Below are positions 1 to 64,000 of a stretch of DNA of 64,000 bases, piece after piece (positions within the stretch are counted from its first letter, which is position 1; every line of letters starts with the position of its first letter). This stretch comes from Asterochloris sp. CNOR1. Lineage: Eukaryota; Chlorophyta; Trebouxiophyceae; Trebouxiales; Trebouxiaceae. A model generated the notes under the pieces. That model ran no database searches. It worked only from the letters and a program-made list of their open reading frames with translations, and was not told the DNA's origin. The stretch lies in the NCBI GenBank assembly GCA_963969365.1, contig OZ017753.1, forward strand, positions 1,860,001-1,924,000, in the 5' to 3' direction. A program made the position numbers and the translations under genes.

Positions 1-3000
1 GCATGAGGATAATAACAGGCTTTTCGGAATCGTGCTGCCCTTGCTGGTCTTTCTCTTCTGCCATTATTGAGAGATCTGGTCTCGTCCTACCGAGAGGTGG
101 CTGTGACCCGTCACGATGGCTCTCATCAGAGGCAAAACACTCCTGAGGATGCACGCCACCCTGAGCAGGTAATCTGAGCACTCTAACTGTGCAGGTCAAG
201 CTTGGCTAAACTTGTGCACCTGAGCATGCAGGAGCTGCGCAGTGGGCCCCACGCAAAGCGGCAGGTCCTATAGCGGTGCCAGCTCCATTGAGGGTACCGG
301 CGCTGAGAAGCCAGTGAGCATTGGGATCTCTTTACCAAGGCTGCACACTTGGCTCGTGCAGTGAATCAGCCTGGCGCACTGGCACCGGCAGCCCTGCCGG
401 GATGCATTGCACACGTTCCGGCTGTCGCCTGTACAAATCTCTGCAGACCTGCGCCCTTGTTCTGCAGGCAATCAGTGCAGAGGAGATATTTGAAAGCCCT
501 GAGGGCCAGACTTTCTACCGCCATGTCACACTCCTGGCAAGCTTGCTGCCTCATCATTGCACCCTCGCATCAGCAGTGCTGACCCGTCCCTTGTCCAAGG
601 GGATCTGCAAACCTGGACGTGCAGCTTCTTCTCGCCCTGCTGTTCACATGTCAATCAGTGCAGCCATTATGTGACACCCAATCTGTGTCAAGCGCTCCCC
701 TGTCTGCAGGCAGCTGCTCAGGAAGCTCTTGCCCGGAAGGCTTGTTGGCCCATGACACACCCCAAGAAGTTTGAAGCATGCATCGGGGGCCAGGCTAAGA
801 TGAACCTCTATCAACACTACATCATGGAGGCCCAACACACCTCACTAAGGTCAGGCCTCAATATCTCTTAGAGGCAATCGTCACAGCAGATGCCCAGGGC
901 CTGCAGACCTGGCGCTCTCTCCTGGAATGCTTGCACCCAAATGTGTGAGCACGCTGGTGCAATCTGCACTGGAAAAGACTTGCAGCACTTTTTCCACCAC
1001 AAAGCACTCCTGTAGGAGAAGGTGTGCAGCACTCTGTCAGCCTGCATGCTCAGGAGGCACCCAACCTGCTGGCTTCTTAGAAGCTGACCCTGTCATTGGT
1101 GTGCTGTCCTCTTGCAGGGAGTCACTTCAGCTCTGCACACACCCGACTGTCTCAAGGCCAATCCTGAGGTCCACATGCTGCCCTCATGCAGGTTGTCAGT
1201 TGAGCTCTGCATGCACCCAGACTGCTATCATTCTGAGGGCCCATCTTGACATTCATGTTGCTGTCCTCTTGTAGGGGTTCAATTGAGCACGGCCACAGAG
1301 CCATCGAGCAAGCTCTGCAGGAGCTGCAACAGGAGCTGCGGCAGGTGGGATGTTTGGCTGCCATTTGCACTCGGACTCAGCCACTAAAATTCTGGTGCTG
1401 CGGCACGCAAGCTGCACTGAGGCAGCAGCAGCCCCCTGTTCAGCTGTGCTACCGCTTTCAAGCTCATGAGAGCATCTCCTGAGTCTGACATTCATATCGC
1501 AGCCAGCAGCGCCTGGACAAGCGCTGTAGGGCAGACCATATAGCAGGCTTGCCTCCTGCATCACACTTTTGGCCGCATATTGTAGCAGTCTCTGCATCTT
1601 TGAGGCTTTGGCTTGGCTACCTGCAAGCAGCAGGCAAGGTGCTCCCCCTGATGTGCTGCACCTTGTCTGCCGCAGGTGCTGAAAGGGCCCTCGTCTGGCA
1701 AGGATGACCTGTTAGCCCTGCAGAGCGAGCTGGTGGCGGCCGAGTACCAGCTGGCGCAGACCCAGGCAGCGCTGGCTGATGCATGCAGACGCCAGGCTGA
1801 CACTGAGCGCCAACAGGTGCGGGGCTAGGAAGATTGGTTGGCTGGCAGGGATGTGGAGTGGCTAGGCACCAGCATCTGAGCATGGAATTTGCCTCATGGC
1901 CATGCTGCCATGTTCCTATTCCTGTCACCTGTGCTGCTCTGACACTGTACAACTTGGGCCCCCGCCAGCCTGCATGAGAAGCAGGCTGCCACCCATCCAC
2001 GTTTGTGGGCAGCGCAGCACTGATGAAGTCAATGCATCCAGCTCTGGAGCCAGGCCTGATGCCCACAGCAGGCAGGCCTGCGAACAGCAAGCCATCAGGT
2101 GCCATGCTTCCCACAGTGCCTGGCTGCATACCCCTCCAACTCTGGTCTTGTTCTGTGCAGGACCTGCTGCTGGGCACCATGCAGGCCGAGCGCAGGCAGT
2201 TTAGCCAGCTCCTGGCCCAGTGGCAGGCTCCTCAGCAAGCCCCTCAGCAGGCCTCCCCAGTGCGGGACATGGTCACAGCAGCTGCTTGCGGCAGCTCAGA
2301 CCTGGTCAGGGCAGTGCAGGCCAAGCAGGCTCATGTTGACGCCTGGAGGCTGGCTCGCACCCCTGCCGTGTGGTGGGCAGAGTCAGGCACCACAGCACCA
2401 GACGGCAGCCAGAAGGTGTGCTGGCCCCTCTGTCACGGTTGCGCGTCCAATGTCAAAATCCAGGCCTGCCAGCAGTGAAGCTGGGTCTGGCAAGAACCCG
2501 AAGCGGGCCAGCAGCATTCCAGTTAATTCAACAGCAATCAGTCCCATGTTGCCAGATGACTGTGCTCCCGAGGTGGTGCATCTGGCAAGCCCAGCAGGGC
2601 AGAATCTCACAGCAGAGCGCTGTCCTGCAGGCCATCATCAACCCCCAGAACAACCGAATCCATTGGGTCTCACCCCGGGGACGGCATCGCTGGGTTGCCC
2701 CACAGGAGCACACTGGCATGCCCCAGGTGGAGCACAGGGCAGCTGACCTGCAGCAGCAGGTGGCCTCGCTGCAGCAGCAGCTGCAAGATGCGCGGGAGCT
2801 GCCCCGCAAGCTACGCAGAGATTTCCAGCAGGTGGGTCACACCGTGCAACCGCACCATGTGTGCGCATGTCGCCATGTTGGTGGTTCCTGCTTTGTGTGC
2901 CTCTGCACATCATACTGATCGCAAAGGGGCGTCCTGGCAGCTCACAGTGGAGTGGACACGGTGCTGGCAATGCAGAGTCAGCACTGTACCAGAGAGCACT

Positions 3001-6000: not shown

Positions 6001-8158
6001 AGCGCCGAGGACAGTGGCACAGACATGTCGGACCTTTCCTCCGACTCTGAGGAGCTTTACAGCGAAGGCGACATCGGCATGGCTGAACTGAAGGAGTTGC
6101 AGGTTTGTTCAGAGGGGTGACCTGCTCACAAGTTATCAGGGTTGCAACAGGGCCTGGGTGGTTCTCAGCTGCAACAGGCATGCTGTGGAAGACAGCTATG
6201 TTGAGCTGGAGGCGCCTCAAGTGAACATGGAAGTCTCTGGCCTTCACGACGGGCTTGCTGCTGCATCGCACGCTGAGTTACCTGGCCACAGGCAAGGCAT
6301 GTACGTCCTGGCAGAGCTGCTGGTGAGGTGCCAGAGTGGCTGCAGACTGTGAGGTCTCCTTGAACAACCCTTTGTCCTTGCGGAGCAGATGGTTCAGGAG
6401 GCAGCCTGAGTGTGCCCAGACACTTGTGGATTCTGGATGCGAGTTCTTTCCTCATGTGCCCTCAACTTTGAGGCTACAGCTGGGTGTGGAGGTGGATGAG
6501 AGGCAGTGACAGTAGTGCAGCAGGGCCGCCAAGTACGCCGGCAAACCGTGGACATGAATGCCCTGCTGCAGGCCCTGAGTGGCCCACCCTCCCTCAGCAG
6601 GAGCAGCTGGGGGACCGCTGATATGCAGCAGCAATGCCAGGAGAGCACGCTTGCAAGCCCTTCCTCTGCAGGTTCCCTCCGGGTCATGCGGTGCAGCAGG
6701 CCAGTGGGCGCCTACCAACTCTGAGTGCAATCCCTCCCCATCATGCAGGACCAGCTGGATGTGGAGATGACTAAGAAGGAGAGGCTTGTGGACTTGCTGC
6801 GTGACGAGAGCACTGAGAAGCAGAAGTGGCAGAAGAAGCTGGAAGGCCTGCAGCAGGAGGTTGGGGACCAGCTGGCAGCACAGAAGGGCGCGTATGAGCA
6901 GAGGGTGGCACAGCTGCAGCAGTACCTGAAGGCTGTGCAGGAGCGCAAGGTCGAGCAGCTGGCAGCACAGAAGGACGCATATGAGCAGAGGATGGCACAG
7001 CTGCAGCATGAGATGCAGGCTCTGCAGGGGCGCAAGGTCGGGCATGGTGCAGTGGTAGAAGCTGACTGCTGCTGAAGTGATTGCTAGGGCATGCTCACCT
7101 GCAGCGGCAGGCTGGGTTGTGTCACCGGGTGCGGCCTGGTACAATGGTGATGCAAGATTGCAGTGGAGGTTGCTGGTGCACACGAGTCAGCTGCCAGCAG
7201 ACCTTTGTCAGGTCTGTCATTGCTAAAGGCAGCTGAGTAGAAATGTCCGGGCTGTTGCAGTTGTAGGTGAGGTCGGCTGCTGGCATGCACAGCGCTGAAG
7301 GGCCGCGCCACTTGAAACGCCGTGTGTGACTGCCGCTGCAGGCTCCGGAGGGCAGTGCCGCCCCTGACGACAGCCAGCAGCTGGCCTCCAGTCTGTACCA
7401 CCTGGGCAGGCTCATTGCTGACAGGGCCGTCTCCCCGCAGCAGCTGGCCGACATGTTCCGAGTCAGCCCCTCTGCTGAGGCAGGAGGCCAGGATGGCATG
7501 GCTGCTGACACTGGTGAGGCTGCAGGTGGCAGCCACTCCCCAGGTGGGTGCTCTGCATGACCGCACCGGCGCAATGCAGAATTGACCCGCAGCTGGTCTG
7601 GCTTGGGCAGACGTCTCTTTCCCATGGGCAGCAACGCTGCTGTCCTTGAGCTTTGAAGGCTGCCGCTCCGTTGTTGGCTTCAGAAAGCCCTTGCATGTAT
7701 GCATTCCTGACATGAAGCATCCAACCAGCCAGACAATGTCATGCTGTGCAGGCGTGTCTGGGCTGTCTGAGCAGCCCTGGCTGGGCTCAAAGCAGCGCAA
7801 GGTGCCCTCGCCCCCAGAGGTCACAGAGGCTGTCCGGAAGTGGACGCCTGGGAGCCCATCCTCAGGTGCAGTTGGCTGGATGGCCTTTCCGCCCTGCTCC
7901 TGTGCAGCTTCTAGGCAGCCACCTGACTCTGGTGCAATGCTACCACTGGCGCTTGCTCTGGACTGTCGAGTGCTTGAGCAGCCACCCCGTGAGGTGCACT
8001 GCCTGCACTGCTGCTTGCTTGGGTCCCTTACTGCACTGCACTGCATGTGCCCAGCCACCTGATGGAGCAACCCCATTCTTGCTTGAATGAACCCTGGCTG
8101 CACTGCCTGAGAAGAACAGCAGCCAACAGCAGCGCCCAGGGTGCCGAGAATCCTTCTG
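1..8158 (+). CDS. Coiled-coil protein, multi-exon, 5' end unresolved
   Basis: No enzyme domain is recognised. The spliced product is dominated by Gln/Glu/Ala/Leu-rich heptads typical of a long coiled coil, so a scaffold or cytoskeletal role is only inference. Well-supported exons, each flanked by AG and GT and open in one frame, lie at about 1275-1344, 1675-1817, 2161-2415, 2632-2831, 3384-3542, 3805-3945, 4714-4818, 5268-5455, 5986-6102, 6515-6640, 6748-7036, 7343-7540, 7750-7864 and 7909-7999; the last short exon ends at a TGA near 8158. An acidic stretch (residues such as SEDSAEDSGTDMSDLSSDSE) lies in the 5986 exon. The 6748 exon carries a perfectly in-frame 29-residue tandem repeat. Before 1275 possible exons exist (one ends at 172, another spans about 232-314), but neither a start codon nor a continuous frame could be fixed, so the gene may begin outside the window. 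Decayed exon copies sit in several introns. Confidence 0.6.
1107..1344 (+). repeat. Three-copy exon-start repeat in coiled-coil gene
   Basis: The real acceptor and exon start near 1275 is preceded by two similar segments starting near 1107 and 1179. Each has a pyrimidine run, a CAG and then a related exon-like stretch. Only the last is followed by a long open coiled-coil exon, so the two upstream ones look like decayed direct copies inside the intron. Spacing is roughly 70-85 bases. Confidence 0.55.
3041..3445 (+). repeat. Three-copy decayed exon duplication in coiled-coil gene
   Basis: The functional exon begins at 3384 with residues VLDDALEAEQAEQQ. A closely similar stretch at 3170 reads VMDNALEVEQVAQQ and then loses the frame. 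A more diverged one at 3044 reads VLADAW before decaying. All three follow a pyrimidine-rich tract ending in AG, so acceptor and exon start were copied together. The copies are direct and lie about 126 and 214 bases apart. Confidence 0.75.
6869..7042 (+). repeat. In-frame 87-bp tandem repeat inside an exon
   Basis: Two adjacent 87-base units encode QLAAQKGAYEQRVAQLQQ... and QLAAQKDAYEQRMAQLQH.... The second unit runs into the exon's own donor (CGCAAG followed by gtcggg). The first unit contains the matching CGCAAGGTCG inside coding sequence, so the exon holds a potential internal donor identical in layout to the real one. Confidence 0.85.
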
Positions 8159-10686: not shown

Positions 10687-10760
10687 TCTCCCGTAGCTCA
10701 GTTGGTTAGAGCGTTCGACTGTTAATCGAGAGGTCGACAGTTCGAAACTGTCCGGGAGAG
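10687..10760 (+). tRNA. trnN(GUU): tRNA-Asn (anticodon GTT)
   Basis: A 74-base cloverleaf can be folded by eye. The acceptor stem TCTCCCG pairs with CGGGAGA. The D arm contains AGTTGGTTA. The anticodon stem TTCGA/TCGAG encloses loop CTGTTAA with anticodon GTT, and the T arm is GACAG-TTCGAAA-CTGTC with a G discriminator. No intron is present. The internal A and B boxes (TAGCTCAGTTGG and GTTCGAAACTG) are intact, so RNA polymerase III transcription is expected. Confidence 0.95.
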
Positions 10761-10783
10761 GATACCTGAAGCTGCACTACAGC

Positions 10784-10787: not shown

Positions 10788-10797
10788 GCTTCTGGCA

Positions 10798-10999: not shown

Positions 11000-13900
11000 T
11001 CAACTTGCGTTCAACCCCTCCATCTGCTCGTCCAGATCAGAGTAAAGCTGTTGTAACCTCTGCAGCTTGTCGTCATCAGGCTGCCACATGCCACGACCAG
11101 ATGCTTCCTGCAAGATTAATGGAGGCCTTTGCTCCAGTGCTATGAAGACCACTGGCTGTCAAAGGAGACATGGCTTACCAGGAATCGCTTGACCAAGTTT
11201 TGGAACGCTTGAGGATTGCTCCTGCAAACAGCGATAGAGCACTTTGCAAGCTGAGTTGCCACTGCTCGCCATGCGCAGCCTTTTTCCAACAGTCAACCGC
11301 CTGCACACTGCCCAACACCACATGAAGCTCTCTGTTCTCACTTGCGCAGCTTGTCAGCCATCTCCTGGTCCATGACATACTGGTCGGCTGCCTGATCATA
11401 GACCCACTTATCCTTAAAGTCCGTTGTGGCACCCCAGCCAATCATGGCTGTCATGCGTTGAGAAATCTCAAAAGCGCCGCCAGAGCCCTGGTCTGCAGAG
11501 GAGTGGGCAGAACGGTTGCCAGCCATGACACTGGTGCAACATAAGCGAGCAACCTAAGCTGCAATGGCGGCAAACCCGCCTTACCACAGGAGCAGCGCTT
11601 GAGACTGCACAGCTCCTTTTAAAGAAGCACCGTGTTGTCCTCTGCTTGAGCTGTATGTATTCCAGGTGCCACTTTGCAGGTGCTCGCTCAGCGACCTCAC
11701 CTGCCATTGCCTGAGCCCACTTTGGGTTCAGCAGCTTGCTGCGATATTCCAGGCGCAGGACCTCCTCAAGCTCCCGGGGCTTGGCGCTCTTGCTGAAGGT
11801 TTCCACAATGCTGCACCCCACTCGGCTGCCATCCCCACGAGCGCTTTCAGCCGCCTTCTTCAGCGCGCCTGCATTGCTGGCAGCAGCACTGCTGAGTTGC
11901 CGTCTGGGCGCGTCTCAGATCTGGCAGCCGGCATGTCCCAGAATACAGCCAGATTGAGGCAGGTCGTATCAAGCTGCATAGGCTTGAGTAAACTGAGCAG
12001 CAGGTGTGTGACATGGACTTGAGCAGATGCAACGGCAAACATCTGGCCCTTGCAGGATGTGGATGTCGCAGCTGGGTGCATTGGGCAGGGCCAGGCCACA
12101 ATTCCATCATGAATCCCATCGTCCAGATGCAGCTGCTGATGCCAGAAGCTTGGCATGTCATCTGCATTTTGCAGCAGGTCATGGCCATGGCTCACCCGTG
12201 TTGGCATAGTACTCCTGAATGTCAGTCAGACCATACTCTACTGAGTCAATCTCCTGCACCACCCTGTCAGTCGTCTTCAGCAGGGACTGCAGGACCTCTG
12301 GCCGAGGGGTGCCTCTTTCTGACCCCCTGCACAGAGCAGTTCTTGCTCTCGTTTACAGGAGCATGCTATCCCCAGCTTTGGATGCCTACTTGATGCAGAG
12401 GCCCACATGATGCCACCCAGCAAGCTGCATGGTCAGTGTGAGAGGAGTGAGGGTATGCAAAGCCCGACTTCACAAAACATATGGACTGTTGACCGCGGGC
12501 TGATGCCAGCTGCCGATTCCTGCCTGGGACATAGTCCGCAAGTTGATGCCATGTGGATTCCTGTTGCAACTTGTCATGCACACATGCAACCAGGGGAGGC
12601 ATGTCGTAAGGTGTGATTGTCTCCTCCTGTGCACAAGCCTGAACAGCAGCAAGCTAACAAGGTCAAGCCCAGCATACACGCACCTGCCATAGGAGAAGGC
12701 GTTGCGGGAGGCCCAGGTGTCCCCAAGCTCTGCACCATCCTCCCAGGTGCTGGCCCCCACGCGCTCGTTCACCATGCTGCCGTAATCACCAGCTGGATTG
12801 CTGAAGAGACGGGCGGAAGTCCTCTGCAGGCCGTCCTGCATCATGGTGCCGCTGTGCTTTCTGCACAAGGCAAGAGGGTATGTCAGTCAGGGGCCGCCAC
12901 TGTACCCACAGCAGCCATGCACTGCACCCTTCAGCAGTCTGCCTGCTTGCTTTGTTGTACAGCCATGATATCCCTCAACGGAAGCAGCAACATGACTTCA
13001 GTGCTTTTGCCACAACACAGGGGGCACCTCTGGAAGCTTGTCTGCTAATAGCGCACCAGACATTTCCTGGGCAGCCCAATCAGGCACAGTCCAGAGTATC
13101 GCCCTCGGCGCAGCATCTGAGTGGGTCACACCGCAGCTTCTGTGCGCAAGGCAATGCGTGCAACGCGGATACCTCTGCCTACCAGGCTGCCTCAGCAGCC
13201 TCACAGCAGCGTGTCAGAGCACAACAATGTGCAGTTTGCAGGTATAGGTCAGGCCGCTGTGAAAGCTGCCTACCTGATGAAATTTAGCTCTGGGGACTCA
13301 TCAGCCTCTGCAAGTCTTCTGAACAAGTCGTCCAACAGGTCCACCACATTCTGAAAAGAATCACGGAAGATGCCGCTCATGTTGCACAGGGTGTCAATGC
13401 GTGGTCGACCCAGCTCCTGCAGGGCACAGTCTCACGGGTGGGACAATGTTCAGGAGCAACAACATGGTGCCATACGCGGGTGAGTGCCCTCCAAGAGCAC
13501 AGGGTGGCAGTGCCAGGGTGTCCCAGCTCCTGCAAATCCACAACTGTCCAAGTCCTAAAGGATGCTGGCGCAGCATATACAAGCTGTGCAGGCACAGCAC
13601 CAGTACATTGACGAGCACAGCACGCACACCCTGGAAGGGACTGGGCTGGCATCCAGGACCCGCCTGAGGCAGCAAGCCCAGCATAAGGAATGGCCCAGCC
13701 TGCTATGCGCCTGTCCAACATCTTGCAGGTGGCTCACCTCCAGCGGCACCAGCTCAAATCGTGCAATGCGGCCAGTGCCCTCCCGGACTGGGCGGGCACC
13801 CACCAGATGCAGCACAATGGCAACAGACTCGCCCTTGGTCTTGATGGCGTCCAGGCCCCACAAGTTGACCTGCACAGACACAAGGAAGCCTAGTTGAAGC

Positions 13901-16900: not shown

Positions 16901-19900
16901 GTATCCCTGCTGCAGCCACTTGTAGAAGGCTGCATACTGGGGGTGGGGTGTGAGGTCTCTCTCAAACAGCAGGCGCATAGGGTCACCCTCCACGCCCAGC
17001 GCTGGTTGGACGCCAATCCACACATTGCCCAGCTGCAAGCCGGTCACCATGCTGTTGCCTGCAGGCGCAGGGCAGCAGCTTACATTGGCTGGTGAGGTCA
17101 GCAGGCAGAAGGGTGCCAGTCAGCACTTGTGCAGGCAGACTCGTATGCACGAGCAGCAGGAGAGCATGTGCTGAGACTAGACACTGCAGGAAGGTCCCCT
17201 GCCAGCTGTGCTGCCTGCCAAACCCCTGGCAAACATCCCAAAGCCAAGCTGCCATAGCCAGGCAGAGGCATTCCCGCCAGTGGTGTGCAGGTGCGGACAG
17301 GCAGCAGCTGCAGCCTGAGGGAGTTGTACAGCCTCCCAGGCCATTTCTGCATTGCGCAGACAATATCTGCCCCCTGAGCAAGCAGCGGTGCTCTCTTCTT
17401 GGCTCCCAGCCTCATGCAGGAGCGCTTTTGCTTGGTGGACAGGCAGGACATCGGCAGCAGTCAGTCAGTCACCTGCAGCAGACGTAGAGATACCCCTGTA
17501 GGAGCCCAGCTGGCCCCACTGCCTCTCCATGTTGGCCACCAGGACATCATGTTCCGGCAGGAAGGGGATTGGCCCCCACTCAGTGGGTCCCCAGCTGTCA
17601 GGGTAGGTCAGCATGCCCTTGAGCTCTGCAGGAGTGACCTCAGCCGCAGTGGCTACAGCTCCAAAGGCCTCTGCATCACCAGCACCCCTGCATCAAACCA
17701 CATGTCACTTCTGCAGGCGGAGCCTCCATTGCTGCTGCTGCCGCATTTGTGCGTCCCTGTAGCCCTGGCACTCGGCAGATGTTTTGTTAACGGTAAATTG
17801 ACTGTACAGGGCGAACTAAGCGCGGAGTATTGCTGCTGTGTATTGGTTGAAAGGGGCAGTCTCAGCATGACATGCGAAGCAGAGGAGAGCCTCTCTCCAC
17901 TGGGATATCATAAGGAAGACTGCTAACGTAAAGCAGTCAAGCTGGCAGCCTCAATAAGAACTGGCGCACCTCTTCTCAATGCCCTGCTTTCCCTCGTAGA
18001 TGGCTCGCTGCTCTTCTTGCATCTTCAGAGCTGCCACAATGGCCTCTCCATCGATATCCCCACCTGTGCCCACAGCTTGCCCAACATTGTACCCAGCATC
18101 CTTCAGACTGCAGGCAGCACAGTCTGAATGGCATCAAACTCAGACGAGATACACAGAGGCAATTGGCAGTCATGCATTGCCACAGAGCCTGGACTAAGTT
18201 TCTTTGTTAAGGACTTGGTAAGCAGAGCACACTATGTGTGCTGCTCTGTTGCCTCTGGAGGAGCTATGTTCAAATTGTGGCACAGCAAAAACCAGGCTAT
18301 CTCACCTCTGCAGAAGGTGAGCAAGGGACTGTGGCACATTCAGGAGTGCAGCTGTTCCAGTGGCCCCCACGCCTGGAGGAAAGCCGTACAGCAGGATGGC
18401 AATCTTGCGTTCCTGCAAGGGCATAAGGATTGAAAGTACAAGCGGCAGCTGCGGCGCGGACATCACAGCACACCATCGGGGTGCTAGGCTGGGTGCTCAT
18501 CAGCAGCCAGCCGAGCATGCATGGTGCCTCTGCAACCTGCAGATGTGCTCAAGTCTGCTGCAGGTGTACTTGATGCACTGCCTCAAGCACCGACTGGGGA
18601 CAGCTGTGCACCCCACACAGGCACGACAGATGCCCCAGTCCCGCCCCTGGGCTGGAGTCTGCCGCAGGTGCATGCACTTTCAGAAGGACTGCTCATTGCA
18701 CAAACTCATCGACTTCATGAAATGTGACGCTCACCTGGGCAGGGGTCTGCCGCAGGTGCACCCACTTCTTGATGCGCTGGCTCAGGCGCTTGACGCGTTC
18801 GGCGACCAAAAAGATGTTGTTGCCCACCAGCCCTCCCAGGGGCACAGTGTCAATGGCGCCATCCAGCTCTGGCAGGGAGTACAGCACCACGCTCTGCAGG
18901 CCTGCAATGCCGTCTCGGGTCCAGCTGGCCATATCCTGCAGGCCAGAAAAGCTTTCATCGAGACTTTTGGGTGGCAGATGCAGCTTTACCACTGCAGCTC
19001 TGCTGGTGCAGCTCTGCAGACAGGGAAGAGGCCTGTTGGGCGTCTTCCAGCAGCACATGTCAGCAGGTGTACTGGCCTGCAATGGCTGTTCAGGATCCAG
19101 ATAGCAACCTGCAGGCAGGACAATCTAAAAGCAGGCACATGTTCAGGCCTGCAATGCTATCGCGGTCCAGCTTGCCACATTCTGCAGGCAAGGAACATCA
19201 TTGAGAGGCCTGAGGCAGCACATGCTAATGGCGCACCACAAGCAGAGTGACCGTGCAGGTGGATCTTGCATGCAACATGGGTGAAGCTGGAAGCACAGGC
19301 ATGAGAGGATCAGCCTGCAGCCTGGGCTGAGGTCGCTGGGACCCAGGCCAGCAGGTGACTTCAGGTGGCCTGTCAGCTCAGCAAGTGCAGTCACCAGCCT
19401 CACCTGGAGAAGCAGCGGGGCTGCAACGATGTAGGGGAAGTTTTTGGCGCCCAGGATGCCCTTAGCAACATCAGCCTGGCGCCCCCCTTCCATGGTGCCT
19501 GCAGTTACACAAAAGATGCTGTGGCACCCAGCAGCATTGAGCAGCACCTGCCACCCTTGAAACCCACCTGTGTTGAGATCCCTGCTCCAGGGCAGCCATA
19601 GCTTGCCACAGCAGCGCGTCAGGCACACCATCAGAGCCTCGGACTGTATGGCTGCATTTATTTCTTGAAGGCCGCCAACTAAAGGGAATCTGTGCCTCTG
19701 ACCACAGCAATCATGCTTAGGCACCTCTTTCACAGTGTGACCATGCTCTTACCTGCAGGACCGCCCACCAGGGGGAAGCCTATTGTGCTAACTACAGCAT
19801 CGACCATCAAGGCATCCCTGTTAAGGCTGGGGTTGGCCTGGCGGCCCTGCTGAGGCTGCTGCTGCTCATCACGGCTGGTCAGCAGATCGCGCACCTGCAG

Positions 19901-28900: not shown

Positions 28901-28993
28901 GTGAGACCCCCAGCTGCTGCCTTTGGGGCTGGCAAAGGCTATGCCTCCCCTTCAGTGAGACCCCCAGCTGCCGCCTTTGGGGCTGGCAAAGGC
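28901..28993 (+). repeat. Two-copy 54-bp-period repeat
   Basis: A segment beginning gtgagacccccagctg is repeated with two or three substitutions 54 bases later (units start at 28901 and 28955). Each unit is about 39 bases long. It lies just after the stop of the upstream plus-strand gene and has the same style as the exon-edge duplications, but here it is in noncoding sequence. Confidence 0.8.
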
Positions 28994-29075
28994 ATCTGCC
29001 CCCCCTTCTGCCAGTCACCAGCTGTGCTTTGAAGCTTTGCAACTGGAGCAGTCTGCCAGGCAGCCACGCGAAAGC

Positions 29076-43400: not shown

Positions 43401-46400
43401 AGACGCGCAGAAAGCACCGGCTCACACATCTGCCCTGCAGCAGGCAGGTCTCAAGCTCTCCCTTGGATCTGGTCACACCTGGAACACCACTGCAGGAGTG
43501 GGCAGGTGTTCAGCTCCGCCTTGATCTGGTCAGGCGCAGAGTGCAAAGCGCACTGGACCTGGGATGGTCTGGCTGTATTTCTGTGTCTTGCTGCAACTGG
43601 AGGCAGGGCTCCCCATTGAGTGGTCCCCATTGAGTGGGTCAGGCAAGCACGCAGTCCACTGACAAGCTGCTCATGCCTGCCTTTGTCCCAGGTCTCATAC
43701 AAGAACAGCCCAGGAGTGCACAGGAAGTAAGTCTGCCCCTACAGAAACTCCGAAAGGTGTTGGCACGTACAGCAGACGGCCTGTGTTAGGCGGACACCCC
43801 TGAAACACCCTCTTCCCCACATGCCAGCGATGTGGGCGATGTTGTATTGGAATGGGCAAGCGCATGGCATGACGTCATGATTGCTATGGGAAGGCAGCTC
43901 AGGTTGCATACAGCCTCTGACAAGACTTGTACACAGTAACACAGCCTCCGGCAAACCTGTTGGCACTCCTTCCAAGGTGGGATGTCACCTTGCTGGGGAG
44001 CAGCACATGCAAGCCCTGTGCAGCTTCGAAATGGCAAGACACAGCAAAGCTTGCCCTGGCCCCAGCCCACCTGCAGAAAACGTGGGCATCGTCCTGCTGG
44101 AAGCGGCGCACACGCGTCAGCCCCTGCAGGGCCCCGCTGTACTCATTGCGGTGCAGGACGCCAAAATCCGCAAAGCGCAAAGGGAGCTCTCGGTAGCTGC
44201 GTGCGCGATTGGCAAACATGAGGCAGTGCCCTGCAGCGGTGCATGCAAACAGTTGGCGCTGAGCAGGCTCCGCGCTCAGCTGTTGAGCATGAGGCAGGGC
44301 CCTACAGGAAGTGGAAAAGGGGTGGCAGAGTGCTGCACAAAACATTTCATGGAGGGAGCAGATTGGTGGTGGCAGCTGCAGCAAAGCAACGTCCCGTTGA
44401 GCTGAAGGATGTGCAGAACTCTCAGCTGGACCGCCACTTTTTGCGCGTCCTGTTACTAGATATGCAGCAGCGGCTTGGTATCATGCACCACAGTGCTCAA
44501 CCACATGCTCAGCAGGCATAAGTGTTCTTGTGCAGTGCAGTCTCAGACCAAAGCATTGGCCAGATGCTCCTCAATCCTGCCCGGCCGGTGCATGGCACCT
44601 CACTCCACCAGAGCACCTTAACAGCCCAGCTTACAGGCGGCTTGCGCACCTGAGCAGCTTGCAGGCCATACAGGCAGTTCGAGAGCTTGCTCTCCCCACC
44701 CCCAGGTGAGGCTCACCTGGACAGTTCATGGGCTTCAGGCCAAACTCCTGCTTCTCCACATCAATGCAGAACATGTTCTCCTTGTAGTGGGCTGCGTGGC
44801 CGGAGGTCTTCCAGAGGTCAAAGTTGTACATGTTGGGGCTGACCACCTCCTCATACTCATACTCCCAGTACTTCTCGCGGATGTACTGCAAGCACACAGA
44901 TGGCGGATAATGGCCAACAGCTGTGGACTGTTGCTGCAGGGTGCAGATGTGGAGGTGACGGGCAGGCGGGGCGGGCACCCAGGGGGCCTTGCCAGGGGCA
45001 GCCCCTGTCTCTGCAGCGGACTGTGTGGGGCTCCCTGCCGATGGGTTGAGCAGGCACCGCAGAGCCTGCACAGATGGCCCCAGGCAGCATAGGGGGTGCA
45101 GTGCATTGATGAAGGCCTGCACACAGCACTAAGCTGAATGCCAGCTGCCAGCAAAAGCGTGCTGCACTCCACAGACAGCGCAGCCAAGGCCCACCCGCCC
45201 AACCCTTGCGCCCAATACCTGAGGTCCCCTCCCCTCCCGGCCCAGGGCGCCCACATCCACTGGGGAATAGCCAGCAACGCAGGACCTGGTGGCAGCCTGA
45301 GGCAGCACCTGCAATCCCACCTCCTTCCGGCCCCACAAGACCAATGCACATATGCCCACACCAGGCATTCATGTCCATGAGCTGGTGGTGCAGGTGCTGT
45401 GGGTCTCCCAGGACCAGCCAGCCTCAGGTCGCCCTGGACAGAGCCCTACCGCTCCTGTCCCTGCTGTGCGGCAGTCAAACCCATGACCAGATGCTTGTGG
45501 CCGGCCTCAAGTCCCTGACTGCTGCCCTGAAGCCACCCTGGCTGCATTCAGCCTGGTAGGACCCACAGACCAGTCTGCATGTCCACCACTCACGTCCATG
45601 AGCTGGTTGTAGATGCGGGCGCCGTGGGGCATGAAGAAGCAGCTCCCAGGGGACAGCGGGTGCATCATGAACAGGTCATGCTGCGTGCCCAGGAGGCGAT
45701 GGTCACGCTTCTTTGCCTCCTCCATCCGTGTCTGGTACTCCTTCAGGGCCTTCTTGTCGGGGAAGGTGATGCCGTACACACGCTGCAAGGCATGAGGGCA
45801 TGAGAGGTTGCCTCTGAGCAAAGCTGCAGTCTCAGAGTCCTTCGGTGCCTCCTTGTTCAGGACAGAGATGCCGTGCACATGCTGCGGAGCAGGGCAGAGA
45901 AGCATGCCTCAGAAGCCGGCCAGGATGTTCTGGGACACAGGTGGCGCGTCCAGTACCTGCAGGCAGGTGCAGGAGGCGGGACTGGTCTGGGTGACATGGC
46001 AATGCAGGGGTCAGGAAGATGATACTCAGCGCAGCAGCTGTTCTTGCCAGCTGTGGTCCGACAATTGCAGAGCTGACATGCAGGCCATGTCAGCTTTGTT
46101 TAAGAGAAAGGTAGTGCCATACATGCTGGAGGGCGGGACCAGATCATTCTCTGCAGCTTTCTCTAAGAGTGCTTGAGAAGGCAGGTGCAGTCTGCCTTGC
46201 ATCATGGGACACCAAGGGGAGCCAGGAACGCCACATGTCGCAGCCTGCTCAGCAGGCATGTGCACCCTCCACCTGTGGAAGAGGGACCCACTGCAGGCGG
46301 GTCATACTCTCTGCAAGCTGTGCCATTGCATGTGAGGTCACCAGCAGTGCAGCAAGGCCAAAAGCACTGCCACGTGCCGTGGTGACATTCAAGTGTCTCA

Positions 46401-49287
46401 CCTGAAGGGGGTCCTTCTTGGCATCTGCTCGCCAGAAAGCTCGCGACAGGTTGCTGACAGCCTGGGCCTTGAGGAAACCCGTGGAGGGCAGGTGGGGCCC
46501 AGTGCACAGGTCCACCATGGGCCCACACCTGCACCAGGGTACACCACCTTGATGCTTGTGAGCATGGAAGGGTGGTGCGCATGCAGCAGCAAGTGCAAGC
46601 AGCACCATGCTGGTTGCTGCAGGTACGAGTGTGCCTGACCATCGCTGAGGGGGCAGCAGTGATTGCCCATGCGCACCGGTTCAGGATGTGACAACAAGGC
46701 TGGGGCAGCTTGACGAGAATCTCCAGATTGAAGCTCAACATGGCACTCAGCTTCACACAGATGCAGCATGTGTGCACCCCTGTTCCCTCCCATCTGCCCT
46801 GCGTCCCCACCCCCAAAACTGCACATGGAACAAACATTGCCCCCATCTAAAAGATCTGACTGTCCTCCTGTACAGCGTAAGGACTGCATCTTGGGACAGC
46901 TCACTGATGCCTCTACCCTGGAGCTCAGTAGACTCCACATGGCACACAGGTGTCCACCTTCAAGCTCAGACAGCCAACATGGTTTCCGCTACACACACTA
47001 GGCTCAGCGTCGTGAGCTTCCCTGCTGACCTTCCCTTCTGCCCTGGGCATGCACAGAGTAACAGAGTATGAGCTGTACACCTGTAGAGCGAGATGACTGC
47101 ATCTTGGGGCAGCCCACTGATGATCTCCACCTTGAAACGGTTCTCCTGAAACATGGCCAGCGCCTCGTCGCGGGTAACCACCACGCGCTGAAATCTGGCA
47201 TTCAGCTTCACCAGCTGCAGGCAGATACACGTGGCATTCCATGACCAACACAGGCACGAGGAGGGGCTTGTGCTTGACCGGCTGCAGGCAAGGAGTGGAG
47301 ATCATGCTTGGCCAGCTGCATGCAGAGTGCAAAACAGGTGCAAGGGTCGCAACTGATTCATTGACATGAGCTGTGCTGACTGCAAGGCCCGTGCTGGTCA
47401 AAAACCTGGCCAAGCTGCCGGCAGAAGGCTCAAGAGCCTGATGCGCTTCAGGGCAAGCTAGATCGCCAAAGCAAGCTGCTGCCAATGCAAGCAGACAGCA
47501 CCACACCCACAGCAAGCAAGTCTCTGTGGCTGCCTGTGCCTGCAGACCACTTTGTGGCTGCCAGAGTGCTGCCGGGCTGTGCTGACATGCAGGACGCCAG
47601 AAGGTCAGAGCCCCTGGCTGTGCCCTGCCAGCTTGACTGCCCTGAGCTGACCTCCTGGATACGCTTCTCTATGGTGGGCTTGTCAGCCTCCCCCAGAGTG
47701 CGCCCGTCGTCCAGGAAGCAGTCGTAGTAGAAGCCCTCCTCAATGGCGGGGCCGATGGTCAGGTCCACGCCAAACTGGGACTCCAGCGCCTCTCCAAGGA
47801 TGTGGGAGCTGCTGTGCCAGAAGGTCTGCAGACACGGAGTCACGACACATGAAGGGAGAGGGGCTGAACAGGTTTGTTCAAGCCCAGCTCTCACAGGACA
47901 GCAGCGGCATGGGAGCTCTGCACACAGTCTGCTGCAGCACAGGAATTGAACTGCTATTGAATGCGTGCAATTCAGAGGATCAGAGAGAGAAGGAGCATCA
48001 TGCAGCAAATGAGTGCTGGCCAGCTCCTGGCTGGAGTCCCAGAGCTGCGGTAATCTTGCTTCCTGTGTGTGCAGGGCACCGAACAGTGCTGCCCCAGGCT
48101 TTCACGGGGGCTCACATCCTTGCCCTCTGCGTCCTCAAAGGTGCAGAGACGCAGGCAGCAGTCCTCCACCAGGGGCCTCTGGATGTCCCACGTCTTGCTG
48201 TCCGCGTCTGTTGCCTCTGTGGGCGCCACCTTAGCCACAAGAACCTTGCAAAGCAACGCAAGAAACAGTTGAGTCGGATGCCCACTGCAAGGTCGTGCGC
48301 CATACCAGCCCATGATAAGCGTCTCTGCACTGGAGGCTGGCAGTTCAAGGGCTGGGTAACAGCCATAACCAAGCCTTGAGGTGCACACGAGATACTGAGG
48401 TCAATGGCAGCTGCACAGCGGTATGAGAGCTGCAGACAATGACCTTACAATGAAGGTGTCGCAGTGACAGAGGCAGGGACCACAGCCCAAGGGCGCATGG
48501 CCAGAGCAACATACGCAAGCTGGACCCAGAGAACATGCCTGTGGTGTCTGCGTGCATGTATTCTGAGCGGCAGTTCATTCCTGTGTCTTTAACAGACAGC
48601 GCACCTTCTTGCCGAGGCTGGTGCTGATGGCATTGGCGATGTCCAGAGGGGTGGTCACACCAGCCACGCCCTCCCTCACACCACCATCAGGCAGAGTGAC
48701 CTGCAGGGGCAGCACGGCTAAGGATGTGCTCCCAGAGTGGGTGGTGAAGCTGTCTGAGTCCTCCTCTGCATTTGCGCCAGCAAGCAGTCGAAGGGCAGCC
48801 AGGGGCTGATTGGCGCAGGCTGATGTGATGCACCCTCCATGCAGTGGCCTCACTGGCTGTAAGCAGCAAAGCAAAGGCTAAGCTCCTGGTCGTCAGGCGG
48901 CAGTGAAGGCCACTGCAGGGGGGCCAGCACCTGGATCTGCTTGTTGTCTGCCTTTGCCTTTTCAATCTTCTCCTGCTCGCGCTGGTAGTACCGCTCAAAG
49001 ATCTCAACACGCTTCTCGTAGTACGGCTGCTTGGCCACAGCGTAGTCCTTGTGCGGCTTAGCATCGGCTGCTGCAAAATGGACGCGGAAACACCTCAAGT
49101 GACATGTGTGTGACCTGGGCTGCTTTGTCTAAGCCAGCCCAGACTGCCCCACAGACATGATACAGAGACCTCAGTCTCACCTGCAGATGCCTTGGCTGAC
49201 TTTTGCTGCTGAGGGGCTTGTTGGGCTGATCCGTTTGCTGCAGGAGCTGAGCCAGGGGGCGGGCCTCCACAGCAGTCGCTCCCCATA
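40457..49287 (-). CDS. TARS: Threonyl-tRNA synthetase, cytosolic type
   Basis: The enzyme charges tRNA-Thr with threonine. Main exons (minus strand): 49287-49181, 49070-48931, 48700-48605, 48250-48110, 47828-47655, 47215-47085, 46530-46403, 45782-45590, 44890-44718, 44235-44070, 43391-43195, 42535-42421, 42140-41980, 41475-41310, 40705-40457, about 760 residues. The N-terminus starts [12 protein letters not shown] with no transit peptide. A TGS domain (VTLPDGG), the editing domain ([23 protein letters not shown]), then the catalytic core follow. The zinc ligands Cys in LKPMNCPG, His in [11 protein letters not shown] and His in [10 protein letters not shown] are all present. Motif 2 [12 protein letters not shown] and motif 3 ILGSVERM are intact. 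The anticodon-binding domain ends [18 protein letters not shown], followed by a short low-complexity tail. Residue order closely tracks human TARS1. Exon borders between the listed blocks are approximate by a few bases. Confidence 0.96.
43010..43240 (-). repeat. Three copies of a ThrRS exon end (DETGLEWE)
   Basis: The true exon end near 43195 reads [10 protein letters not shown] before gtgggc. In the following intron, copies read [11 protein letters not shown] (about 43130-43095) and [10 protein letters not shown] before gtgagg (about 43050-43010). All are direct and roughly 80-110 bases apart. Confidence 0.75.
43364..43531 (-). repeat. Three copies of a ThrRS exon start ([10 protein letters not shown])
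   Basis: The exon start at 43391 ([14 protein letters not shown]) is preceded in the intron by copies at about 43474-43447 (DQIQGRA in one frame, SKGELETCL in another) and 43530-43505 ([12 protein letters not shown]). The last is nearly unchanged over ten residues. Spacing is about 57-83 bases. Confidence 0.8.
45733..46128 (-). repeat. Three copies of a ThrRS exon start ([11 protein letters not shown])
   Basis: The functional exon starts at 45782 with [19 protein letters not shown] copy starting at 45881 reads [19 protein letters not shown] second starting at 46125 reads [14 protein letters not shown]. Both lie in the preceding intron, 99 and about 343 bases from the true acceptor. Confidence 0.8.
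46866..47130 (-). repeat. Decayed copy of ThrRS exon end ([14 protein letters not shown])
   Basis: The exon end near 47085 encodes [14 protein letters not shown]. The downstream intron, about 220 bases on, carries [15 protein letters not shown] at 46905-46866. It has retained an open frame, so it is young or under some constraint. Confidence 0.75.
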
Positions 49288-51767: not shown

Positions 51768-54700
51768 TCAGGAGGTGGCGCCTTGACAGCTGGACCCTGC
51801 ACCTGCTGTGCACCCGAAGCAGTGGTTGTCTACTGCAATGTTGGCCCCCGTGAGCTCGCTGAGGTGCTCAATATGGAAGACCGAAAGCCGCTCCTGCTCT
51901 GCGTGCCCCTTGATTCTGTACAGCAGGGTAGATTCTTGCTGTCTTCAGTTGTGGAGGTAGCCATTGCAGCTGTTTGGCCTGCGCTGTGCAGATGAGGCCA
52001 GTTCCGAGCAACTCTGGCAGGCCCACAAGTTGGCAAGAGAAAAATTGACACTTACTTCATGCCCATATCCAGCTGCTGGTTGAAGTCGCAGTCGAACAGG
52101 AGCCCATCCCAACCCACGTTGACAGTGTCTCTGCACATCACACCGTCCGCAGCAGCGACATTGAAGCTCTCCACCAGCAGCTGCAGGCGCCGCAGATCAA
52201 GCTGATTTAAACTTCCAGGTGCGCAGCAGCATGGTGTCCTTTGCCTGGTGTAGCAACCACTTCTGCCTGCCCCCATGACACCAATTCACTGAGCTCAAAC
52301 AAAGTGTTAGCTTCTTGGCACGTCATTGTATTGGCATGCAGCAGGAGGTAGCCAATCTTCTATCATACCCAAATGCAGACAGGGCCAGGGCTTGCACTAC
52401 ATGGTCAGCAGCGTTGTGCACAACACAGCATGCACACCAAGGTTTGCAGCATTGCAGCACTTAGGCACTAGCCACAACAACATGTGGACCCTTGATGACC
52501 TGCATGTACTCCTCCAGCTTGCCGCGGCGCTGCAGATAGTCAACATAGCGCTTGATGGGCATGTTGTTCAGACAGAAGAGATTGTTGAAGGTGATGCCAT
52601 AGGCCTCCTTGAGCTCCTGCTTGTAAGCAGCCTGCAGGCATGCGGTTCAGCAGCTCAGGGCAACCATGACAGCCTCGACTTGCAGGCCATGGTGTGCACT
52701 TGCTGCCAAAGGTAGGCTTACTGCTATTTGAAATCTCTCGCATTAGGAGTAGGGCTTCCCCAGGCTGCGGCCCACAGTGCTGTATGCACCTCCGGCTTCA
52801 CATGCAGTGCTATGTCAGCCACCTGGTTCCAAGAGTGACATCCAGAGCAATTGCAAAGAAATTTCTGCATCAGTGTCAAGCATGCTCTGCTGAAGCAACA
52901 GCAAGTTGCCAGCCAGACACCTTTGGCTTTGATGGTAGAGTCTCCTTCTCTTGACACGACCAGCTTGACAGCACCCCCCAGCTGCAGTGCACTGCAGCTC
53001 AGCCCACCTCAAGAGTGTTCTGCTGGGGCGCCAGGAAGATCCCATTGGGGTTGTACACCAGATCAAGGTGCAGCCCAGTGCCTGGCTGCCCATACCCTGC
53101 CTCGTTCAGCATCTGAAGGCCTCGAATGCTCCGTTGGAACACGCCGCTGCCACGCTGCTGGTCCACATTCTGCTCGCTGTAGCAGGGTAGGGAGGCCACG
53201 ATCCTGACCTGTAGGCGCAACAAATCAGATTCTCCTTCAGAAGCTGTCTTGCATTGCTGGCAAGCTGTCTGTTTGTTGCCAGCAGGACAGGGTCTACACA
53301 GCAAGGGCAGGCCCAACAGCTTCAGACTCCCGCAGTCAGGCATGGGCTGCAGATGGCCACGTTCTGCTCACGGTGGCAAAGCAGCAAGGTCTTGATCCTG
53401 ACCTGCATAAAGACCAACAGAAGCCCCTTGCTGACATGGTATCTTGACCAGCAGGGGTGCGGAGGCCAGTGCTGTGTGTGTGCAGCAGACAGGACCAGTG
53501 GACCTGGCATGCACCCCGAGGTGTAGGGAGACATGCTTGTCCCTTGCTGCACATTTCACCAGCAACTTCGGCCCCAACTTGCACCATGAGCTAGTTCGGC
53601 AGCACCACTGGCAAGCAGGCTGCAGCCTTGCCTGCCCGCTGTCCTGCAGCCAGGGAGAAAGCAGTGCAGGGGGCAGCCCGTGCTTGCAGGACGTGCCCAC
53701 TTCCCGGCTGCATACACGCGGCAGCCGGGGACAGGAGGGGCTCATAGCAAACACCCTTACCTGGTGCTGGGCAAGGAAGCTGACCAGATCCTCCTGCCCG
53801 GGCTCAAGCAGGACTGTCAGGTTGCAGCGGTCAATGACCTCCAAGCCCAGCCTGCGGGCCTCCTGCACCAGGTACCTGCAGCAGCAGGCAGGGAAATTCA
53901 TGCAATACCCTGCCCTGCCTCACTGCTTGAGGTGACAGTGTCAATAGTGCTCAGCACCAGCCAGGCAACGGAGCCTCCAACCCCAGGCCGGGAGCCAGGG
54001 CCTCCCGTGGCCTGTGTGGGGAAGACATGCAGCAGCAAGCCGACTTCATGGACTCAGCAGCAGGCTACGGGGTCGTCCAAACGCCGCCATGCAGTCAATC
54101 TGCCCCAAGCCTGCTGCACCAGGTATCTGCAGCAGCAGCCAGACTGCTTCCAGTTGACTGAGCCATGAATATGCGTGCGGCGGTGGTCATGAGAAGCAAG
54201 TCCCAGCTTGCCTCTCTCCCTGAGCCGCTTCACGAAGGTCAAGCAAACAGGCTAGCAACATGCAGGTCACGGTCCACCAGGCAAGGCGGTCAGGGTGCTG
54301 CCTTGCAGCAGCACCTCATCAACTGATCAGCAGCTCCACATCCACTTCCAGGGCTCTTGCAGTCTGACTCATGAAGTGCGATTCCAATTTCAGCCATGTC
54401 TAGCTGCAAGTGCCACTCGACTCCCAAGCCTCTCCCCGTCTCACTTACTTTATCTAAGGCACGCTCCATAGATGGCCAATGGCCAAGCCCTCACAGTGTC
54501 TAGGCTGGCAGCCATCAGTTCCCAAGCCCCCATGTTATTGCAGTGCACAGCAATATGGTGCACCTGAACTGGGAGTTCATCTCGGGGGCGCCCCCAGTGA
54601 TGTCCACCGTCCTCACAGTCTCCGGGCTGGCAGCCATCAGGCGCACACACTGCTCTGCTGTTGCTCTGTCCATCATCTCGGTCCTTCTGGGGGAGCTTTC

Positions 54701-55917: not shown

Positions 55918-56093
55918 CTCCCTGGGAGTACTGGTGCTGTTGTTTGCTTGCTGCCGACGAAGTATGCAACAAGAGGAAGCTAAAGCAAGTCGAAAGAAGC
56001 TTGGCAGCTCCAGTTCAGACTAAAATGTCAAATTGTCAATCTGTCAATCTGTGACAGCTGCAGGTTGACGGCAGCAGCGGCAAGCAGGCCTAG
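55918..56093. promoter_or_regulatory. Bidirectional intergenic region, ArsS and TMEM19-like
   Basis: One hundred and seventy-six bases separate the divergent start codons. A short direct repeat (gtcaatctgtcaatctgt at 56035-56052) is present. No known promoter element is evident. Confidence 0.3.
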
Positions 56094-57391: not shown

Positions 57392-57459
57392 GCTGGCCTG
57401 CTTGTGGGCAAGTACATTGCCAAGGCGTGGATGCTGTTGGCAGAGGAGGACAGAATTAG

Positions 57460-61910: not shown

Positions 61911-62087
61911 AAATGCAGATGTCTGCTGCAGCAGCAGAGCTGAACAGGGCACAGTGTCACCACAGTACCGAAGTTGGCGGAAGTTGCTGGGGTTGGGGGA
62001 TATAGATATTGCTCTTCCACAGTGCCATCCTCTCATGGCAACATTGACTTCCTGCTCAGGCCTCTGCTGGCTGCACCAAGCAGCGTT
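61911..62087. promoter_or_regulatory. Bidirectional intergenic region, IST1 and Tudor-like gene
   Basis: The divergent start codons are 177 bases apart. No recognisable promoter element was found. Confidence 0.3.
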
Positions 62088-64000
62088 ATGAAAAGATCTC
62101 GCTCCCTGTCATCCCTGCCTGAAAGTTTTGGCTACAAGCGTCGCAAGCCATCTGCAGCAAGCAGCCGATTTGCACCTGTGTCTGGACCCTCTCGCAAGAG
62201 AGCCAGTCAATACGCTGCTCCTGCCATTGCTGGGGGTGACGCAAATGCATCTCAGACATCAGACCACAGCAGGAAGTCTGGCCGCCTCTCAGATCGCCCC
62301 TACCTCAACTGGAAGGAGGTCTTTGTACAAGATCACCAGCAGCAACAGCAGCAGCGGGAGGCTGCTGCAGGCCAAGGCACCGCGCCAAATGCAGGCGTTG
62401 CTCTCCCTGCTGCTGGCAACAATCAGAAGGCACAGACCAGTCGCCCTCCACTCAACAAAATAGATGCCAGACAGCTCGTTCCCGAAGCTGGCAGGGCCCT
62501 GGCTTCAGAGCTGGACGCTGCCCACGACCACTTTCAAGGGAACCTACAGGATAGGCTCGCTTTCAGGACGTGAGACCTGTGCAGCGCCAAGCTGTTGCCT
62601 GCCACTAGACAGCCGTGAGAAATGCATGACAGCCTTTTAGAGGGCAGCACCATGGCGTGCACCAGGGCAACCTGACCCACAAACCTAAGTTGGGACCCAG
62701 CCTGAAATGGTCTGCCTGCTGGACACTTGCAGAGCTGTACACTTGCCACCCTGAGTAATCCTGGCACGGATGCAGCCAGGACCTGCTGCTGCACATTGGC
62801 CTGACAGTTGCTGCTGCTACAAGCTACAGGCCAGGCCAGAGCACTGCAGTCACGATGCCCTCACAGTGCACAGTCCATTGCTGTGATGGTACAGGTTTGA
62901 TGCGGCCAAGCGCATGCGGCCGGCAGACCTGCTGCACAGGCAGATCAGGGTGTACTGGGATGGGGATGATGGCTGGTACCTGGGCAGCGTGCACTCCTAC
63001 TCGCCCCTGACAGGCACCTACCATGTGAGGCGGAATTGAGAGATATTCGCTGCATAAAAACCTGCTTCCTCATGTTGACAAGTACGGCTGTCTGCTGCTG
63101 AGGGCAATGTTTGACATTATGTGGGCAGTGTGCACTACAGCCGCCCCTGACATTTCCTGAGCCTTTCTGGTTGGAGGCTTCTGCCGTCTTGGTATATGCT
63201 TGGCCCAGGCGCACAGCCACTGTGTGTGAGTGGCTCACTGCATCAGCTGGGCCTGGAAACGGGTTTGGCTGCTTCGATTCTGTTTGGGGGGCTGGTGGGT
63301 GGGGCAGAAGCTCTCATGTGCACGCATTGGTCACTCCTGCTGTGCTGCATGGCCTGCTCAGAAAGTTGTCACCCTGCAATTGCAGGTGAAGTATGCTGAC
63401 GGCACAGACGACCCAGAGATGTACCTGGCAGCTGAGCGCCTGCGCCTGCTGATGCACGCTGGGGAGTCCTTTGTGGGCCCCAGCAGCAGAGACCTGCTGG
63501 CAGTGGCCGACCAGTTACGGGCTGGTGCTGCCTCCAGGGCAGCCGCTGCTGCAGAGCTGAAGGACAGGGAGGAGCAGCAAGGTGGGAACGCAGCAGAGTG
63601 AAGCATGCCTGTGCGCAGAGCTTTGTCAACCAGACTGTGCATCCATACCGAGGCCCCGGCAAAGCAGCGGCCATGTATGGAGTTGGGGTTTCAGCAGAGG
63701 GTAGCACATGTGCTGCCCAGCAGATCAGGGTGGGACTGCTGAGTTCACTGGCTCGGCAGGGCCAAGAGATTGGGCTGGCTCCTCAGCAGTAAGGCACCTG
63801 CAGGTGGCAGCGATGCACAGCTCTCAAATCTATAAATTTCTGTGCTGACCGTCCACTGGTACAGCTTGACCATTCAGCACACCCAGTTTGGTGTCAAGGG
63901 CCATCAGCACTTGCACGGGTGGCTTTACAGTGACGCAACTTGCTCAGCCTGTGCATGCACATGCCTTCTTTAAGGTTGAACACTTCCCATCTTGCAGATG
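62088..64000 (+). CDS. Tudor-like-domain nuclear protein, cut by right edge
   Basis: Exon 1, 62088-62569, begins MKRSRSLSSLPESFGYKRRK and is basic, Ser-rich and low complexity, with KRRKP and SRKRAS as likely nuclear-localisation signals and a Gln run. Exon 2, 62895-63024, encodes DLLHRQIRVYWDGDDGWYLG and SVHSYSPLTGTYH. Exon 3, 63386-63581, encodes VKYADGTDDPEMYLAAERLR followed by an Ala-rich helix. The pattern (R/K)xxVYW-D-WYxGxVxxYxxxTGxxxVxYxDGxxxxxxL is the Tudor-like module found in chromatin proteins such as plant trithorax-type ATX, MSH6 and PDS5 relatives. The phases of both introns fit. The remainder, which would identify the protein, lies beyond 64000; a possible further exon is at about 63616-63792. 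Confidence 0.7.
62975..63165 (+). repeat. Decayed copy of Tudor-like exon end
   Basis: The exon end GGTACCTGGGCAGCGTGCAC...CGCCCCTGACAGG (62975-63024) recurs at about 63117-63165 as a diverged copy (ATGTGGGCAGTGTGCACTAC...CGCCCCTGACATT). The copies are about 142 bases apart, the second within the intron. Confidence 0.75.

Follow-up and report, generated by a model that had tools for sequence, protein, structure and literature searches.

Decayed copies of exon edges in the introns of Asterochloris and their probable origin in small tandem duplications

Results

The stretch of Asterochloris sp. CNOR1 DNA analysed here (the window, 64 kb, positions 1860001-1924000 of one contig in a genome of 56.4 Mb and 21 contigs) carries predicted genes for Mg-chelatase ChlH, threonyl-tRNA synthetase (ThrRS), a ubiquitin hydrolase (zf-UBP, UCH), a radical SAM/DUF3641 protein and an Ist1 protein. 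Introns in the window contain decayed copies of the edges of the neighbouring exons, and the origin of these copies is the subject of this work. The window was analysed together with 25 stretches of 10 kb across the contigs (314 kb in total). Genes were predicted with a purpose-written two-strand generalised hidden Markov model trained on the Asterochloris genome analysed here, which gave 618 introns in all sequence analysed (median 256 nucleotides, nt), 581 of them in the window and the 25 stretches; its trained splice motifs are AG/GTGAGC for the donor and CTGCAG/G for the acceptor (slash, junction).

Exon edges recur in the adjoining introns

We compared 60 nt of each exon edge with the adjacent intron (score at least 14, intron ends trimmed), with length-matched other introns (shuffled pairs), the reverse complement, exon middles and far exon edges as controls. 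About one intron in ten (62 of 581) holds a decayed copy of a neighbouring exon edge in the same direction. The first 60 nt of the downstream exon matched the upstream intron in 29 of 488 cases (5.9%, against 0.32% for shuffled pairs and 3 matches in reverse complement), and the last 60 nt of the upstream exon matched the downstream intron in 35 of 479 (7.3%, against 0.35% and again 3). Exon middles matched in 1 of 166 cases (shuffled 0.37%) and in 4 of 151 (2.6%, somewhat above the shuffled 0.45%), and far edges in 0 of 327 and 1 of 304. A first-pass annotation of the window had noticed such copies by eye and proposed this comparison as the check; over the 581 introns, matches are indeed more frequent than for shuffled pairs (about 0.3% in other introns) and are enriched at junctions over exon interiors. 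Copies occur in 20 of the 127 window introns, which are thus somewhat rich in them, and in 42 of the 454 introns of the sampled stretches; the window cases are spread over six of the seven predicted window models, which merge neighbouring genes.

The copies also have a direction. Upstream partners exist for 7.5% of the 20 exon bases that follow an acceptor and downstream partners for 1.9%; for the 20 bases that precede a donor, the shares are 7.4% downstream and 1.4% upstream, and the average over all bases is 3.2% in each direction. The opposite directions thus fall below the average, and the annotators' impression that exon starts are copied upstream and exon ends downstream is confirmed. 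Junction-spanning matches point in the expected direction in 86 of 105 cases (45 acceptor, 41 donor; 73 junctions).

Local direct copies are a property of the genome

An ungapped scan of the 25 stretches (score at least 16), which uses no gene model, found direct matches 50-300 nt apart at 540 per Mb and inverted ones at 4 per Mb. Density per 100 diagonals (per Mb) declines from 354 at 50-100 nt to 66 at 250-300 nt and 25 at 300-400 nt, and is 2-5 at 2-6 kb; the copies considered below are the local ones. Chained matches (score at least 18) gave 198 pairs in the 314 kb at a spacing of 20-350 nt, 159 of them at 45-220 nt, and 24 at 350-680 nt, compared with 5, 8, 5 and 1 in equal-width bands at 1, 2, 3 and 5 kb. 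The window accounts for 49 of the 198 pairs, and the ungapped count per sampled stretch ranges from 0 to 13. The local excess of direct copies is therefore a property of the genome and not of the window. Young pairs are scarce, with an identity of at least 95% in 8 of the 198.

By class, 82 of the 198 pairs cross a junction, 25 join an exon interior to noncoding sequence, 54 are wholly noncoding and 37 are exon-exon. Random rotation of the annotation alone gives 62.6 (standard deviation, sd, 6.5), 31.5, 77.9 (sd 7.7) and 26.1, respectively, so that the earlier statement that most copies sit on junctions was too strong.

Copies and duplications in the window are collected in Table 1.

Table 1. 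Exon-edge copies and other local duplications in the window. Spacing is the distance from source to copy; rows marked weaker score below the later threshold of 18.
Positions	Strand	Feature	Source	Spacing (nt)	Match
18646..18679	-	Copy of end of ChlH exon 18735-18935	18734-18767	88 downstream	30/34
18553..18588	-	Second copy of end of the same ChlH exon	18745-18787	196	32/37
19074..19126	-	Weaker copy of start of ChlH exon 18735-18935	18899-18953	174 upstream	score 16.6
19144..19195	-	Copy of start of ChlH exon 18735-18935; acceptor CTGCAG kept	18897-18949	246 upstream	46/54
20468..20530	-	Copy of start of ChlH exon 20208-20443	20388-20448	81 upstream	37/46
20084..20113	-	Copy of end of ChlH exon 20208-20443	20195-20224	111 downstream	26/30
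13497..13534	-	Copy of start of exon 13274-13416	13384-13421	113 upstream	31/38
25280..25320	+	Copy of end of ubiquitin hydrolase (zf-UBP, UCH) exon 25041-25226	25184-25224	96 downstream	31/41
25872..25923	+	Copy of end of ubiquitin hydrolase exon 25638-25808	25762-25813	110 downstream	37/52
43440..43481	-	Copy of start of ThrRS exon 43207-43396	43359-43399	81 upstream	36/42
43492..43535	-	Second copy of start of ThrRS exon 43207-43396	43353-43396	139 upstream	37/44
43100..43125	-	Weaker copy of end of ThrRS exon 43207-43396	43207-43232	107 downstream	22/26, score 17.2
46860..46909	-	Copy of end of ThrRS exon 47081-47214; donor GT now GA	47073-47122	213 downstream	42/50
53357..53405	-	Copy of start of radical SAM/DUF3641 exon 53008-53208	53163-53211	194 upstream	37/49
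54109..54142	-	Copy of start of radical SAM/DUF3641 gene exon 53761-53875	53858-53891	251 upstream	31/34
63122..63152	+	Copy of end of exon 62914-63024	62981-63012	141 downstream	25/26, two blocks
32124..32349	.	Noncoding tandem duplication in predicted intron		~122	77/90
28901..29008	.	Young noncoding tandem duplication, 54-nt unit			49/51 identical
6866..7044	+	In-frame coding tandem duplication, 87-nt unit (contrasting coding kind)			80/92

One ChlH exon, 18735-18935, has two start copies upstream (one weak) and two end copies downstream, all within 18553-19195, which suggests repeated duplication at a single exon. In-frame coiled-coil repeats at 33477-34370 are coding local duplications, unlike the intron copies. 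Elsewhere in the window there is a tRNA gene at 10687-10760 (+ strand) and a PF01940 protein, for which the matches listed include Trebouxia (51%), Elliptochloris (48%), animals and Volvox. Within the ThrRS model, 125 bp at 44072-44196 have 72-75% identity to Shinella, Methylobacterium and Sinorhizobium replicons, as expected of a conserved coding region; a plasmid search with the window returned this short match and no other.

Most copies are probably junction-spanning tandem duplications

To compare the copies with what tandem duplication would leave behind, we used a forward simulation in which units are random, only events that preserve the mRNA are kept, unused copies decay neutrally and exons are constrained. 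Among noncoding pairs of at least 90% identity, the span reaches at least 0.98 of the spacing in 8 of 12, as for abutting tandem units. If a copy arose in tandem, similarity should persist on one side of it only: over 58 pairs, residual similarity exceeded random on the predicted side (p=0.0096) and did not on the wrong side (p=0.52). Among the clearest cases is the ThrRS copy at 46860..46909, which scores 26.6 on the predicted side against a random mean of 10.7. In the middle identity class, identity from the exon out to position -20 runs 0.77/0.67/0.61/0.37/0.37 in the observed copies and 0.77/0.67/0.60/0.46/0.39 in the simulated ones (indel setting 0.15), so that the fall at the junction is much like that of simulated tandem duplications to -6 and is steeper beyond. 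These observations suggest that most copies are probably tandem duplications that spanned a junction.

Several results weigh against this conclusion or narrow its reach. When the predicted and wrong sides are compared directly, the difference is 33 versus 22 of 58 (p=0.071), and the ChlH copy at 18646..18679 has no residual similarity on the predicted side (score 6.9 versus 6.5 for random). Exon-noncoding pairs of at least 90% identity span at most 0.27 of the spacing in 8 of 11, while the simulated median is 1.0; simulated decay explains such short spans only in part. The observed copies of the highest identity class are less similar than the simulated ones at every position. In addition, 19 of the 105 junction-spanning matches point the opposite way, and 17 of the 86 that point as expected have a spacing greater than the intron length, which places the partner outside that intron. 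The simulation model misses some of the decay, which may stem from larger indels and nested duplications.

The excess at junctions and the age of the copies

Pairs that involve an exon outnumber noncoding ones by 107 to 54 (1.98). One explanation would be a process that is aimed at junctions or coupled to splicing, through R-loops, lariat or cDNA intermediates, and that copies exon edges into introns. The excess itself, about 1.6-fold above the constant-rate expectation, favours such a process, as do the somewhat faster drop in similarity past the junction than in simulation, the many high-identity exon matches that are short relative to their spacing, and the multiple copies at some junctions (86 matches at 73 junctions). 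On the other hand, the copies do not stop at the junction as cDNA would but continue into the intron, with a match of 0.61-0.68 at positions -1 to -6, and wholly noncoding duplications, at 54 of the 198 pairs, are common. The excess lies mainly in pairs below 85% identity and can be explained by an older age spectrum. We regard junction targeting as unlikely.

How age enters is seen in the simulations. With a constant duplication rate the ratio is 1.22, and young pairs are overpredicted (chi-squared 47.7, 14 bins); this model was rejected. An early version of the simulation gave 1287:1066, and two other settings gave 1.13 and 1.09. When the duplication rate is made proportional to age, the ratio becomes 2.00 with a chi-squared of 14.7 over 14 identity-histogram bins. 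Two points count against leaning on this fit: two other well-fitting declining shapes (chi-squared 12.2 and 13.9) give ratios of only 1.69 and 1.57, and the declining shapes were picked after the misfit of the constant rate had been seen. Further declining shapes gave chi-squared values of 20.8 and 29.8 with ratios of 1.47 and 1.32, and steeper ones fitted worse (34.2 and 63.3). Exon-noncoding and noncoding pairs number 80 and 34 below 85% identity, and 27 and 20 above it.

An older age spectrum can thus account for the junction excess largely or entirely, because among older pairs only those with an exon partner can still be seen, and given the fit of a declining rate no junction targeting is required. 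The first-pass annotation had argued that the preference for junctions excludes a general duplication bias. That argument fails: such a bias, together with selection on the mRNA and unequal decay, can reproduce the preference, provided that the rate declines. An older age spectrum also hints that duplication was once more frequent.

Taking the observed excess, direction, orientation and noncoding decay of the copies and the sufficiency of a declining-rate model as our starting points, we think it likely that small tandem duplications arise at random, that those crossing a junction survive through splicing, and that exon constraint keeps their copies visible for longer. The duplications would fall at random positions. 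A unit laid across an acceptor would leave the mRNA unchanged only if the downstream acceptor is used, so that the upstream copy of the exon start would stay intronic; a unit across a donor would be the mirror image. Each such event would add one unit to the intron, and the unused copy would then decay neutrally. Judging from the simulated histograms, the constrained exon partner could keep a pair recognisable about twice as long as an intron-intron pair, and surviving copies would look junction-bound because of this longer visibility. The initial lesion may be repaired by fill-in and end joining, and duplication may have been commoner in the past. End joining would leave little or no microhomology at the break; in nine young near-exact units, span minus spacing is within 1 nt in four, +4 to +10 in three, and -5 and -21 in the other two.

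The copies decay as noncoding sequence

In exon-noncoding columns, mismatches by codon position are 238/1239, 244/1253 and 301/1254 (0.192/0.195/0.240), and the spacing of 71 pairs falls 25, 17 and 29 times into classes 0, 1 and 2 modulo three. In comparison, 29 of 39 exon-exon pairs are in frame (multiples of three). Since codon-position mismatches are nearly flat and the spacing has no preference modulo three, the intron copies are most likely dead and are not alternative exons. With the exon base taken as ancestor (codon positions 1 and 2), the changes comprise 263 transitions and 219 transversions. Repeat-induced mutation was considered as a reason for the fast divergence and rejected, as the mutation spectrum has no such signature.

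Could the copies instead be retained as decoy or alternative splice sites, as the annotation had offered? An initial measure, in which AG was kept in 84 of 90, spoke for this, but it is an ascertainment artefact, since the match had been required to cross the site, and the abundance of CTGCAG probably helped to produce it. We therefore anchored copies on exon sequence alone, which was possible for 23 of the 29 copies at acceptors and 28 of the 35 at donors. The AG positions then agree in 35 of 46 cases, compared with 187 of 230 for exon columns (81%, p=0.35), and the GT positions in 34 of 56, compared with 212 of 280 (76%, p=0.012, lower), so that neither is kept better than exon columns. The dinucleotide is still present in 15 of 23 acceptor copies, a point in favour of retention, and in 12 of 28 donor copies. 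Retention as splice sites is thus very unlikely. CTGCAG occurs throughout the sample at 2.6-3.0 per kb, whether in exons, introns or intergenic DNA, and hexamers rich in CAG/CTG are likewise very frequent in all three.

Slightly less probable still is an artefact, in which the copies would be alternative exons missing from the annotation, coding repeats or products of faulty gene models. The gene models are ab initio, from sequence alone, and sometimes merge neighbouring genes, which together with the short aligned spans is a weak point of our analysis; two predicted stretches of the ThrRS model, 44886-45116 and 45195-45308, are doubtful, homologous sequence resuming at 44885. Against an artefact stand the codon-position and spacing patterns given above, the contrast between direct and inverted matches, which needs no gene model, and the location of junctions in conserved genes: ChlH junctions 18735, 18935, 20208 and 20443 fall within alignments of the predictions to solved Mg-chelatase ChlH homologues, and ThrRS junctions 43396 and 47081 within the alignment to solved ThrRS homologues.

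The route of intron gain raised in the annotation, in which an AGGT-containing segment is duplicated in tandem (for exon segments, the Rogers model of intron birth), is scarcely credible even though introns hold exon sequence and donor or acceptor motifs are sometimes copied, because it would make the spacing equal to the intron length, which holds within 5 nt for 0 of the 86 expected-direction junction-spanning matches, and because the copies carry intron flank.

Introns at junctions with copies have a median length of 321 nt, compared with 252 nt for the others, as growth by duplication predicts; long introns also give more room for copies. What stands of the earlier interpretation is thus tandem duplication as the source and the growth of introns, supported by the exclusively direct orientation, the continuation of copies across the junction and the difference in length. 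Intron gain through AGGT and retention as decoy or alternative sites find no support, and the exclusion of a general duplication bias does not hold.

Discussion

Here, we have described decayed, same-direction copies of exon edges in Asterochloris introns and argued that random tandem duplication, filtered by splicing and by unequal decay, is their likely source. If so, they provide a quantified route of intron growth, in which duplications that cross a junction are concealed from the protein by the choice of splice site. As the ancestor of each exon-intron pair is nearly known, the pairs also allow neutral intron mutation to be measured in polarised form in a single genome. Our results further call for caution, since an apparent preference for splice junctions can arise largely from selection and unequal decay.

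A bolder possibility, which we put forward tentatively and would not yet bet on, is that the genome keeps a datable record of a mutator phase, during which small tandem duplications were several-fold commoner than now and lengthened a large part of the introns, followed by a slowdown. If this were true, exon edges fixed by selection would date each event and polarise every later mutation in the intron.

We note that the density of copies was measured in this one genome. Among the titles and abstract openings listed for open-licence papers, none is an obvious description of a genome with such a copy at about a tenth of its introns, and a term search of the Coccomyxa genome paper retrieved seven passages, none of which describes exon-edge copies in introns.

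Among known systems, internal gene duplication was reportedly treated by Gao and Lynch in 2009. The Asterochloris copies resemble it in that segments within genes are duplicated locally, and they are unlike it in that the units are short, mostly decayed and in many cases outside coding sequence. Small tandem duplications are said to have been traced by Vaughn and Bennetzen in 2014 to fill-in and end joining at staggered breaks.

Schimmel et al. (2021, PMC8355091) describe small tandem duplications that arise when staggered breaks are filled in and end-joined. Like those duplications, the Asterochloris copies are direct, tens of bases long and adjacent when young; unlike them, they are mostly old, with a spacing of up to ~300 nt. 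Another report (PMC4974935) presents intron gain by tandem duplication in a potato RdRp case, and also mentions an 83-bp tandem duplication within an intron. In potato RdRp as in Asterochloris, a tandem duplication touches splice signals and the choice of splice site sets the outcome. The two differ in that outcome: Asterochloris has no sign of new introns, and it is the existing introns that lengthen.

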